In this document: in pieces, positions 8,554 through 15,750 of the stretch
How the letters are laid out: each line of letters starts with the position of its first letter
Position numbering within the stretch: the stretch's first letter is position 1
Assembly (NCBI GenBank): GCA_003116975.1
Contig: BGKB01000074.1
Coordinates: 186,001 to 250,000, forward strand
Reading direction: 5' to 3'
Length of the DNA: 64,000 bases
Source: Aurantiochytrium sp. KH105
Taxonomy: Eukaryota; Sar; Bigyra; Thraustochytrida; Thraustochytriidae
Notes under the pieces: generated by a model
Told to the model about the DNA's origin: nothing
The model's input: the letters and a program-made list of their open reading frames with translations, nothing else
Databases searched by the model: none
Translations under genes and position numbers: made by a program

Positions 8554-9549
8554 TTATTGCCCCCAGCGCTGCTCTGAGCGACTGTAAAGAGACAGACTCC
8601 GCACAATTGACGCGTAGAGTACACTTTGCATCGACTGGCCGAGCGTTCTGACAAAATTTGTGAGTGACATTCAAGGGCGTCAGATTCAGACACACAATGC
8701 GACAAGGGCTGGAGAAAGAACTTACAGAATCTCGGGTGTGCGAGCAATCCATGCCGGGAAGCCGCCAAGACACGCATGTTCCGAAAAGATGAAAACGACG
8801 TCAAGACGACCTGTGGCATGTTTGGTACAGGATAGACGCTTGTCCAAAAGTCCAGCGTCGATGCTTTGCACAGGAGTTTCTGCATCGTCGACGAGGTCTT
8901 GTGCGACTCGTGCCATGTCGCGAGCACCATCGTCATCCGAAAAGAAGCGTACGCTTACATCAAATTTACCTTGGTTGCTGCTATTGTGGACGATCTCAAC
9001 GGGTGAAGCGCTTCCACCCACAAAGATTTGCATGGAGCGCACCGCGGCGAGCTGACCGAACGCGAGATAGCCCATTCCCCTTGGATCGTGTAGCATGTGC
9101 CTTAGATGCGCAGTTATGCGTGGTAGGGCTTTCTGCATGTCACCCGACCCCTCGAACACGACCAGCTCACGGACACCCGCATCCGCGAACCACATCATCA
9201 CGCTGGCGCACTTTTGCGCGAGTTTTTCGAGTGCTCTAGTATCTGCATCACCCTCGCCGAGTGTGCTGCGCTCCAAGCACAGGCCTACGCGCGCAGGGGT
9301 CTTTGCTAGCTTGAGCTTGACAAGCTTGGAGCCCCGCTTGCCGTCGGCCTTTTTCCCGCTTGCGGTATCTGCGACGTCCTCGTCTGTGATCATGGCGGCC
9401 TCGGCTTGCTTCACGAAGAGAAGCATTCGCCAGTACGCGATCGACAAGGCTGCCGCACATCCTCGACTCGTCCTGTACGCCCAGGCGGCGGCGGCCACGA
9501 GCAGGCCGAGCAGCGCTCGCAGCGTCGCGCCCAAGACGGAGGAGGCCAT
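8554..9549 (-). CDS. NUS1: NUS1/NgBR, dehydrodolichyl diphosphate synthase complex subunit (2 exons)
   Basis: Join of 9549-8726 and 8647-8554 (minus), 305 residues. NUS1 is the non-catalytic partner of the cis-prenyltransferase that makes dolichol for N-glycosylation at the ER. Seen: N-terminal hydrophobic membrane segment, divergent cis-prenyltransferase core, and a GGFPAWIARTPEI segment matching the family's C-terminal region. The uninterrupted frame stops at TAA right at a GTAAGT donor. A 78-bp intron (8725-8648) ending in TTTTGTCAG restores frame (phase 2) and adds 30 residues ending EQRWGQ, the position of the RxG motif of NUS1 proteins. Matching donor, acceptor, phase and family C-terminus make the splice model strong. 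It is followed on the same strand, about 105 bp upstream of its start, by the P4H-Gnt1 stop. Confidence 0.85.
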
Positions 9550-9653: not shown

Positions 9654-10212
9654 TCAGCGTCCGTCAGCGCGCCCGGGGCCGCCCTCCCTCCCCGCGCCGG
9701 CGCCGTTCGCGCGCTCGCGCTCGCGGTCGCGCTCGCGCCCGCCCGCGGCGACGGTTCTGGCAGCGAAGTCCACGCCGATGGCGCGCCCCAGCTCCGCGAG
9801 GCCGCGCCCGCGCGCGGCTCCGGGCGCCGCCCCGGGCGCCGCCGCGGCCGCTGCGCCGGCGGCCAGCGCGCGAGCGACGGCGCGCGAGGCCTCGAGGCGC
9901 GGCGCGTCGGCGCTGCGGAAGAGGCGCTCTTGGCGGTCTGCCGTGGCCCACAGGTGGAAGACGAGGTCCTCGCGCGCGGGGCAGAAGACGTCGCAGCCGC
10001 GCGCGAAGAGCCGCGCGGCCATGGCGCTCTCCTCGCCGAAGAAGAGGTGCTCCGCGTCCGCGTACGCGACCAGATCCGTCAGGACCTCGGCACGCGAAAA
10101 GTTGAAGCCTCCCGCGAAGAGGTGCGTCGCGACCACCTCGGAATCCGCGCCGTCAGATTGCGACGGCGGGGAAGGAGGGGAGGATGAGGATGAGGGTGAG
10201 GATAAGGATGAT

Positions 10213-10247
<35 letters not shown>

Positions 10248-11699
10248 TGATGGAGGCGAGGTCAAAGAGGAGGGCGATACTCGCTCGCTTTTTATGCGCA
10301 GGGTCCAGTCGTCGTGGTCGAAGTGGCTGGGCCGCAGAATGGGGGCCGAGAGGACGCCCAGAGACACGAGCGTGAGCTCTTTGTGCGGAAGACGCTCCTC
10401 CCCGGAAGAACGGTCCAGCTCAAAGCCCGCTGGATACGTGGAAAGCATGGCTCGCGAGGGATGCAATGCGCGAGATGCCGCGACTTCAAGCAAATGGATC
10501 ATCTTCTCGTCCCAGCCCTTGACGAAGCGTGTATGCGCGTCGATATTCAGGAGATAGGTCTCCCCGCCGTACAACGACTTATGGATAAGGGCGCGCGCGG
10601 TGCAGGGCCCAGTTGCACTGCTCGCTGGAATCGCCACGGAGCGAACGTGGCCCAATTTGATGCGCTGTACAAAAAGGTCACGCTCCTCCGGAGTTCTCCC
10701 AAAGTATTCTGTTTCGTCGCTCTCGTTTTGCCAGCAGATTCCCACCCGAACACGTTCGGGGCGCGAAGCTTTCTCATAAAGGTCGAGGACCGTCGAGGCA
10801 CACAGAGGATCTCGAAAGCTTGGGATGGCTACAAAGATTGTCTCCGCAGACGATGGAGTTTCCATTCTTGTCATGGCGGCGGGCTTGGATGCAGAAACAA
10901 CATCCAAAGACTTGCTGTAAAACCAGCAGGTGATGGCCCAGCGAGGCCGACTTTGTGTCTTGAGCACTTCATGCTCCAAGTGAGACTGAAAGACTACCAG
11001 GCGGTTGGCTTCGGGTGCCACATCGTAATGTTGATCACCAGATGGGGAATAAATCCGTAGCGCGCCCTCATGCTTGGTTGGAACCCAAGCTGGATTCAAA
11101 TAGAGAAGTGCAGTCACGACGCGATGACCCTCCTCTTTGTTTTCTGTATCGCGATGCTTGACATAGCCCGCGGTATTTGCGGGATAACAGGCAAGCTGAA
11201 GACTGACGCGATCGGACAGCGCAAAGCGCTCGCGTAGCTGGCTTTGCAAACGCTTGAAGACACGCATGGCGGCATCAAACATTGTCCGGCGGTCCCAGGC
11301 TGCTGTGATCCACGCAATTCGATCGCCTCGATACAGGGCGTCCTGCCAGGCCGTATCGGCCCCCATTCGTGCTACGCGCAAGTCATCAGGGCCACGATCT
11401 CGAATCGCAGTGCACAAGGCCTCGCACTCTTGCGCATCCATTGCTGGCATCTTTGAGCACCAGGCAAAATCATTGCTACACAGCGCAAACAGTGAGTGTG
11501 CATCAAGAATGGGTTCTTCTACGATTTCCTCGGGCTTCACGCTCGTCGTCTCCGCTTTTGGAGAGAGAGATGCTTCAGCTTTGTTGGCGGGCGGCGCGAC
11601 GTCCGCATTCGTTGCAGCTTTTTGCCCTACCGGAGCACCAAGGAAAGCCGCAAGCCGGGCTCTCAAGGCATCGTTTTGCAATACGTTCCCGCTTTGCAT
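9654..11699 (-). CDS. Fused prolyl 4-hydroxylase (PhyA-like) and GT60 GlcNAc-transferase (Skp1 Gnt1-like)
   Basis: One uninterrupted 681-residue frame holds two enzymes. Residues about 70-262 are a 2-oxoglutarate/Fe(II) prolyl 4-hydroxylase: HxD at H182/D184, distal H243, and R253 ten residues later for 2-oxoglutarate. Residues about 285-640 are a GT60 N-acetylglucosaminyltransferase: IFVAIPSFRD start, NIDAHTRF in the metal/sugar-nucleotide position (D387), and later FAGGFNFSR and FFGEES motifs. In Dictyostelium and Toxoplasma, separate enzymes of these families hydroxylate a Skp1 proline and then add GlcNAc to it, linking oxygen to SCF ubiquitin ligases. A low-complexity Ser/Pro/acidic insert (about 10180-10260) interrupts the transferase, and the C-terminus is Ala/Gly/Arg-rich. 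No signal peptide is seen, consistent with a cytosolic enzyme. Substrate identity is inference. Confidence 0.85.
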
Positions 11700-14106: not shown

Positions 14107-14745
14107 CTTTGCCGTCAACTTGCACGCGACGCGCGTCCGTCTGTCTGCTGATCCGGGTCGGCGCTCCGCTGCTTCGCGTCCACGCACTCCGGAAGGCAGG
14201 CGGGCGATCGAGCGAGAGCGCGGCAGCCAAGGCGTGGTCCCGACGCTGTTGCTAGTCTGGGCGGCGCGGGGCGAGAGCGACCAATTCTGGTGGTCTCGGC
14301 GGGCCTCCTTAAACCCCCGTGCGCGCCCACCTTAATTGTGGCGTTGGGACTCTTTTTGGGCCACTTCGATTCTCACTCACAACACGTGCAAGCAAGCAAG
14401 CACGTAAGCAAGCACGTAAGCAAGCAAGTGAGCAGGCAAGCAAGCAAGCGAGCAAGGTAGCAGGCAGGCGCCAGAGATGCGACCTTGCCGCTGCCGAGGC
14501 AAACCTGCGTCGCCGGCTGTGCGAAAGGCGGCGAACGAGGGAGGGAGGGACGGAGGGAGTGTTTGAGGTGGCGCTGCTGGTCACTACTGGTCGCTCCACC
14601 TGGCAGACTGACTGCGAGCGAAGGTCAGGAGCACAGCGACGACGCCGACTGTTTCTGTGTACTGTGCATGGGGAAAAAACGGAGCGGACGCCACGAGACT
14701 ACCCAAGTCGGCCTTTTCTTTTCAGACAAGAAAAGATCTAACAAT
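14107..14745. promoter_or_regulatory. Upstream region of NOP10 and the UBA5-like gene, with CAAG repeats
   Basis: A 639-bp divergent region. An imperfect tetranucleotide array of CAAG/CACGTAAG units runs from about 14390 to 14460. A pyrimidine tract ending TTTTCAG at about 14724 could be the acceptor of a 5' UTR intron of the UBA5-like gene. No coding sequence is recognised. Confidence 0.45.
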
Positions 14746-15750
14746 ATGGGCGATGTCGAAGAGTCAAGCGAGAACACTGCGCTGCATGCAACACTGGAGC
14801 GAGCGAGGTTCGAGGTGGCAAAGGAAGAAGATGTTTTGGCCTGGGTGAAACGACTCGAATGTAAAATCAAAGAGCTCGAGTTCGCAGCCCGCATGCACAA
14901 GAACCCCGACGTCATTCGTAGAGTCCAGGAACTCGATCTCGAAAAATTGGAGCGTTTTGCGAACAAATCCAAGACCAGAATGAGCGAGCCCGAAAATAAG
15001 AGTCACTCTCATGTACGACCCTTGCAGCCAAAAACTGTCATTCTAGTGGGAGCTGGAGACGTTGGGTCGTTTATTGCGGAAGGCCTTGCTCGCGCCGGAA
15101 TCGGCAAGCTTGGCATCCTCGACGACAAGGTCGTCACCGAGGCCTGTCTCGCAAAATCATGTTTTCGACGCGAGCACATTGGTCTGGCGCAAGCTGTGGC
15201 TGCACGCTCGCTTGCACAAGATCTCTCCTTTTCAAGCAGCGTATGTTCCATGTCATCTCCCGTTTCGGTACGAGCTCTAGATGAACTCTGCGGAGACTTG
15301 GATGTGTATCCCGCTGATTTGGTTGTCTGCTGCCTCCGCGAACGTGAAGAGCGCTCTGCTGTGAGTGCATGGTGTGTAGAGAATGGCACGGCCTTTATCG
15401 ATACTTCAATTCACATTGACCCCGCGCACGGTCTGAGTGGTGCGGTTCATGCGTATACGTCGCTCGCTTCTTCAGACAAGGTTGTGGCTCTCGAGAATTG
15501 CGCAAAATGCGATTCTTTTGCCCAGACACAAACGCGATCAAATCGTTGCGAAGAAAGTCCTGACCCGGGCTTTGCAGCGCTTCTCGCAGGTCTTGTTCTT
15601 GCCAAAATAAGTAGACTTTTGCTTCCTTCGACAGTCAACGACCCTGGGCGATTATATACTTCCTATTCACGTCGGATGGACAAGGTTACTGTTTCCTCTG
15701 CTGCAGCACGGGCTGTCAACGCGTGTTCGTGTTCCACCGCGATTTCCTGA
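14746..15750 (+). CDS. Degenerate UBA5/ThiF-fold E1-like protein
   Basis: The 334-residue protein has an N-terminal coiled-coil-like region (about residues 10-85) and a Rossmann ThiF/E1 fold starting TVILVGAGDVGSFIAEGLARAGIGKLGILDD, best matching UBA5, the E1 of UFM1. Key E1 positions are altered: the glycine loop is GAGDVG instead of GxGGVG, the downstream N-x-N-R motif is replaced by C-x-A-K, the CVDN-type aspartate after strand 6 is missing (LREREER), and the catalytic-cysteine segment reads NRCEESPDP. One CxxC of the zinc site (ENCAKC) survives. The ORF ends abruptly with CSCSTAIS at the edge of a 60-bp repeat array. It may be a pseudoenzyme, an unrelated ThiF-fold protein or a decaying gene. 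The ATG at 14746 is the first Met before homology. Confidence 0.6.
   Translation: MGDVEESSENTALHATLERARFEVAKEEDVLAWVKRLECKIKELEFAARMHKNPDVIRRVQELDLEKLERFANKSKTRMSEPENKSHSHVRPLQPKTVILVGAGDVGSFIAEGLARAGIGKLGILDDKVVTEACLAKSCFRREHIGLAQAVAARSLAQDLSFSSSVCSMSSPVSVRALDELCGDLDVYPADLVVCCLREREERSAVSAWCVENGTAFIDTSIHIDPAHGLSGAVHAYTSLASSDKVVALENCAKCDSFAQTQTRSNRCEESPDPGFAALLAGLVLAKISRLLLPSTVNDPGRLYTSYSRRMDKVTVSSAAARAVNACSCSTAIS

Follow-up and report, generated by a model that had tools for sequence, protein, structure and literature searches.

A putative PhyA-Gnt1-type prolyl hydroxylase and GlcNAc-transferase joined in one gene of a possibly thraustochytrid-like stramenopile

Separate and fused enzymes of Skp1 modification

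Human PHD2 (EGLN1), the solved protein that by sequence and by fold best matches the hydroxylase half of the gene described here, acts on HIF-alpha and carries no glycosyltransferase, whereas in the present gene the hydroxylase is joined to a domain of the GT60 family. In Dictyostelium and Toxoplasma, PhyA and Gnt1 represent the same two families and the same presumed order of reactions, but are two polypeptides rather than one. A 2019 paper on the plant pathogen Pythium ultimum, likewise a stramenopile, reportedly describes a dual-function enzyme that modifies Skp1; going by this title, both activities reside in one enzyme and act on Skp1, in what appears to be a different organism from ours. 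PHYa-Gnt1 fusions are furthermore frequent in protists according to the accessible part of PMC6437050, in which 'many' PHYa genes are joined to a Gnt1-like coding region, both parts lying in one gene as they do here.

Because the same fusion has already been published for other protists, the gene is a further example of a described kind of system and not a new kind, and the novelty implied by the first-pass annotation does not hold. Among the matches listed by a search of mainly non-subscription literature, no description of a PhyA-Gnt1 fusion in thraustochytrids was found. The gene adds one case, concordant between haplotypes, in which the first two enzymes acting on Skp1 are fused, in what may be a thraustochytrid-like stramenopile. 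The genome's PfaA-like PUFA synthase match (930 bits over positions 6-1035, short of the family cut-off of 1010) points weakly to such a host, the same search having also given signals below cut-off in 11 of 14 control genomes. If the host is indeed thraustochytrid-like, it is a microbe cultured at large scale, and possibly a convenient one in which to test whether fusing an oxygen sensor to its capping enzyme alters the response to O2.

Domains and structure models of the fused protein

The window, meaning the whole stretch of 64,000 nucleotides analysed, contains a reverse-strand frame of 681 codons that opens with an ATG at 11699 and closes with a stop codon ending at 9654, with zero in-frame stops between them (Table 1). 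The first-pass annotation had described a single unbroken frame joining two domains with intact motifs, and this stands: the coordinates are exact, and H182, D184, H243, R253, NIDAHTRF (from residue 385) and FFGEE (from 553) are all present. Its reading of the product as a PhyA-type hydroxylase with a Gnt1-type GT60 transferase of the Skp1 route is likewise consistent with the Pfam, motif and fold matches; NCBIfam gave only a weak match, below its cut-off.

Table 1. Features of the fused gene, in window coordinates
Feature	Position	Strand	Basis or remark
Putative bifunctional PhyA-Gnt1 type gene, 681 aa	9654..11699	-	ORF reading and Pfam
Prolyl 4-hydroxylase (PHD2/PhyA-type) domain, residues ~69-264	10908..11495	-	Pfam, phmmer, Foldseek
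HxD iron-binding motif, H182-R-D184	11148..11156	-	Sequence reading
Second iron ligand H243 (H-E-V) to 2-oxoglutarate-binding R253	10941..10973	-	Roles by comparison with DdPhyA
Inter-domain linker, residues 265-285 (about 21)	10845..10907	-	Unconstrained between haplotypes; mostly low model confidence
GT60 (Gnt1-type) alpha-GlcNAc-transferase domain, residues ~286-660, including C-terminal helices	9720..10844	-	Pfam PF11397, alignment, Foldseek
DxH motif, D387-A-H389	10533..10541	-	D and H in 54/54 GT60 rows
Ser/Pro-rich insert, residues ~481-520	10140..10259	-	Length differs between haplotypes; low model confidence
G555-E556-E557 motif	10029..10037	-	G and second E in 54/54 GT60 rows, first E in 52/54

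The hydroxylase half matches Pfam 2OG-FeII_Oxy_3 (PF13640) over residues 167-261 (E 1.9e-21), and among solved proteins phmmer relates it to PHD2/EGLN1 (2.2e-15), the HIF prolyl hydroxylase structure 6ey1 (1.2e-13) and 6t8m (4.9e-9), the last of which we take to be DdPhyA. The length of 6t8m agrees with that of the construct DdPhyA(60-284), and residue roles were assigned from the DdPhyA counterparts H191, D193, H266 and R276 (both from the accessible part of PMC7864055). All five residues named as required in active PHDs, forming the HxD, HxV and K/R motifs (PMC6437050, accessible part), are found in the fusion as H182, D184, H243, V245 and R253. The P4H family assignment of the fused domain was made from these pairwise scores and motifs.

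In the transferase half, the best stretch of the match to Pfam GlcNAc (PF11397) spans residues 350-597 (E 1.3e-43), and a profile search with the GT60 alignment reached a solved pp-GalNAc-transferase (E 0.0019). The 54 rows of GT60 proteins used to gauge motif conservation comprise the fusion, its second haplotype copy, five paralogues and 47 viral rows; at position 385, 52 of them have Q and two, the fusion included, have N. The domain extends into part of the GC-rich C-terminal region, whose GRAIGVDF segment aligns with the GT60 paralogues. The fusion has no membrane anchor by hydropathy, its best 19-residue mean within the first 80 residues being 0.78, as against 1.72-2.62 in four of five GT60 paralogues and 1.24 in the fifth (a comparison made without the fragments on C14 and C241). 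Judged by this hydropathy measure, the fused GT60 domain is probably soluble and cytosolic and without a signal anchor, in the manner of Gnt1 and not of the Golgi GT60 enzymes.

Two structure models were obtained. The first, built on an alignment of nine rows, was poor overall (mean pLDDT 44.8), and a Foldseek search with its hydroxylase half returned PHD2 (E 7.7e-11, TM-score 0.52 by target length, rmsd 9.9). The second used the 50 rows that remained of a 56-row version once two misplaced P4H rows and four GT60 rows from longer viral proteins had been removed, and reached a mean pLDDT of 61.2; its GT60 half is confident, with many ten-residue blocks at 85-96 and a low-scoring insert, while its hydroxylase half is poor, below 50 over residues 164-282. 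Helices are predicted by this second model at 634-641 and 655-666 in the C-terminus, and its Foldseek matches are pp-GalNAc-transferases, the best being Toxoplasma GalNAc-T3 (E 6.1e-10, TM-score 0.37 by target length, rmsd 5.4). The fold matches of the models to PHD2 and to pp-GalNAc-transferases are significant, with loose superpositions and modest TM-scores.

Haplotypes and relatives of the two domains

The host assembly comprises 76 Mb in 367 contigs, and many of the genes searched for are present as two copies, as would be expected of a phased diploid. A partner copy on contig C174 (L009:4188-6239), of 683 aa, is the same fusion with the same junction; the two proteins agree at 610 of 663 aligned positions, and their alignment has three gaps, each of whole codons and each in the Ser-rich insert or the tail. 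Silent changes between the copies (48 per 498 sites) are in excess over replacement changes (56 per 1491 sites; Fisher p 1.3e-6), a substitution pattern that rules out a chance frame. When divided by part, the excess has p 2.7e-7 in both domains jointly and p 0.02 in the hydroxylase alone, p 1.8e-6 in GT60 residues 287-480 and p 0.15 in 521-600, and p 0.11 in the N-terminal stretch, linker, insert and tail pooled. The linker itself, with one silent and three replacement changes in 22 codons, displays no visible constraint. That both haplotypes share the junction, with in-frame length changes and relatively few replacements, speaks against a pseudogene or an assembly join; the join at the domain boundary that the first-pass annotation had named as counting against its reading is accordingly improbable, the copies agreeing across that boundary. 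Genome-wide searches at E <= 0.001 gave at least 33 PF13640 matches and at least 22 PF11397 match rows, and among the matches listed the two stand side by side only on C74 and C174.

The genome also encodes an unfused PHD-type prolyl hydroxylase, L003 (C42:340398-340913), with a partner on C146 (L004) and a long tail of IDSTQSE-like repeats. The pair is 32% identical to the fused hydroxylase domain, and L003 scores more strongly against solved structures (1.5e-32 for 6ey1 and 2.3e-14 for 6t8m, compared with 2.2e-15 at best and 4.9e-9 for 6t8m in the fused domain). HxD, HxV and R occur at the aligned places in L003, as read from L053, the same gene, and hydropathy gives no membrane anchor (best 1.18). 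A group of stramenopile PHD-like proteins, B3, has substitutions at critical catalytic residues (PMC6437050, accessible part).

Viral contigs are rich in GT60-type GlcNAc-transferases. Scanning viral_contigs and genome_contigs with the whole fusion protein, a single-protein query that reaches close relatives only, produced nine pattern matches in each and zero confirmed relatives; a scan of viral_contigs with the GT60 alignment confirmed at least 573 relatives among at least 600 candidate stretches, 80 of which were kept as loci (L072-L151, IMG/VR contigs). A scan of viral_contigs with the P4H alignment yielded 15 pattern matches and no relative. Within the 80 viral loci, phmmer with the fused P4H domain (E <= 1) found no match in 899 ORFs of at least 80 aa, and the HxD...H...R pattern was not seen in ORFs of at least 120 aa. 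This absence of P4H domains beside viral GT60 is weak evidence because, when ten P4H frames of the host genome, one of them the fusion, served as controls, phmmer missed four and the pattern six. Pfam found no P4H in seven viral GT60 proteins; four of the seven also have an O-fucosyltransferase domain, and one of these four a PLOD-type GT domain as well.

Proposed role in Skp1 modification and its alternatives

A Skp1 family search of the genome gave five matches. Two frames, on C8 and on C118, show no difference over 172 residues and both contain KNKTPEEIRETFNI, as does a third frame on C8, while a diverged pair has KAMTPAERTEAF; the target-proline segment accordingly reads KTPEEIR in three of the five frames and MTPAERT in two. 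Pro143 of Dictyostelium Skp1 presumably falls in the KTPEEIR segment. It is the hydroxylated proline of that protein (PMC3515798, accessible part). The target proline that the first-pass annotation had wished to see in the genome's Skp1 is therefore found in Skp1 frames, as a permissive test only, because the best-matching solved Skp1 chains share KTPEEIR and human Skp1 carries, to our knowledge, no such modification. One of the C8 frames, L024 (C8:489234-489377), is a chimera whose N-terminus resembles L025 and whose C-terminus resembles L022, such as unequal crossing over or gene conversion might produce; of the three Skp1 frames on C8, no more than two were seen on C118.

Candidates for later steps of the pathway are also present. 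A GT8 protein (L027) matches 6mw5, a UDP-galactose:glucoside-Skp1 alpha-D-galactosyltransferase that we take to come from Pythium, at 4.1e-51, compared with 4.2e-26 for the best glycogenin, and so appears to be a clear Gat1 homologue. Hydropathy indicates no membrane anchor in two PgtA-like proteins, L061 (best 1.18) and L062 (best 1.17); in L061, the one scanned with Pfam, an N-terminal half without a match precedes a C-terminal GT2 domain, and the order in Toxoplasma PgtA is GT74-GT2 (PMC6939170, accessible part).

The frame is a single one, its two domains have intact active-site residues and are conserved between haplotypes, and Skp1 and likely later enzymes are encoded in the same genome. 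We consider it highly probable that the ORF specifies one soluble, cytosolic, bifunctional Skp1 hydroxylase and GlcNAc-transferase responsible for the first two steps. By analogy with Pythium, Dictyostelium and Toxoplasma, from which the substrate, activities, order of steps and O2 response are inferred, the N-terminal PHD2-type domain would hydroxylate the KTPEEIR proline of Skp1 in a reaction using O2, Fe(II) and 2-oxoglutarate, and the C-terminal GT60 domain would transfer alpha-GlcNAc from UDP-GlcNAc to the resulting hydroxyproline, the glycan then being lengthened by the PgtA-like protein and the Gat1 homologue. That fusion confers an advantage through channelling is conjecture; fused odd-even enzyme pairs may support processive processing, as offered in the accessible part of PMC8724618.

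The hydroxylation of Skp1 might instead fall to the unfused enzyme on C42 and C146, a matter that sequence does not decide, in which case the fused enzyme would glycosylate the hydroxyproline of some other cytosolic protein. The catalytic residues of L003, its lack of a membrane anchor and its better scores to 6ey1 and 6t8m favour such a division of labour, which nevertheless seems unlikely: a hydroxylase close to animal PHDs need not have Skp1 as its target, many PHYa genes are fused to Gnt1-like regions, and in Toxoplasma a further PHD (PHYb) beside PHYa serves another process (both from the accessible part of PMC6437050). That a bifunctional protein is assembled but only one of its domains is active, the other being inert, would suit the Ser/Pro insert within GT60, the N at position 385, the weak silent excess in the hydroxylase alone and the non-significant one in GT60 521-600; as the window copy has its catalytic motif residues in each of the two domains and the aligned second copy has identical motifs, we regard it as very unlikely.

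A joined frame might also be a genomic read-through from which an in-frame intron, an internal promoter or a transcript end produces two proteins, and the two methionines (MTRM) immediately before the GT60 domain, in a linker of about 21 residues without constraint, could be taken as a sign of this. Against it, the frame crosses the linker without a gap in both haplotypes, the space between the domains is probably too short for an ordinary promoter and 3' end, and the title of the Pythium paper speaks of one dual-function enzyme, so that two separate products are extremely improbable. A single bifunctional Skp1 enzyme is the reading we prefer.

The genome holds a second fusion of a dioxygenase to a glycosyltransferase, in a 658-aa frame on C28 (G000:C28:593571-595544, reverse strand; L153:1569-3545). 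Its JMJD6-like domain, at residues 68-366, matches solved JMJD6 at 1.1e-45 and Pfam JmjC at 5.3e-16, and is joined to a GT32 domain at 459-509 (2.9e-9); the protein is predicted from hydropathy to lack a membrane anchor. No allele was found in the genome, the next best place being 42% identical, and no description of a JmjC-GT32 fusion was found among the matches listed by the search of mainly non-subscription literature; this may be the more surprising of the two fusions. Glt1 was sought among 26 PF04488 (GT32) matches in the genome, 22 of them taken as loci, and these loci hold no confident candidate. Hydropathy was compared in 19 (leaving out L048, L044 and L046), L153 having the lowest peak at 1.26 and the other 18 lying at 1.44-2.73; L044 and L046 reach the locus edge or are without an N-terminus, and their readable parts peak at 0.89 and 0.92. 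One could imagine several Skp1 steps gathered in fused enzymes, with O2 entering twice, at the PhyA-Gnt1 protein and then at a soluble JMJD6-like/GT32 protein that either supplies the Glt1 step or places an independent, O2-coupled mark of cytosolic hydroxylation and glycosylation, a scheme that we hold to be decidedly unlikely.

Two further frames of the window were noticed. A NUS1-like frame (dehydrodolichyl diphosphate synthase subunit; 8722-9549, reverse strand), the next one downstream on the strand of the fusion and about 100 bp away from it, matches solved NUS1 at 2.2e-6 and has no match in Pfam or NCBIfam. On the forward strand, at 14485-15750, lies a ThiF/E1-like frame (2.6e-20) that presumably represents something akin to a UBA5-type activating enzyme.
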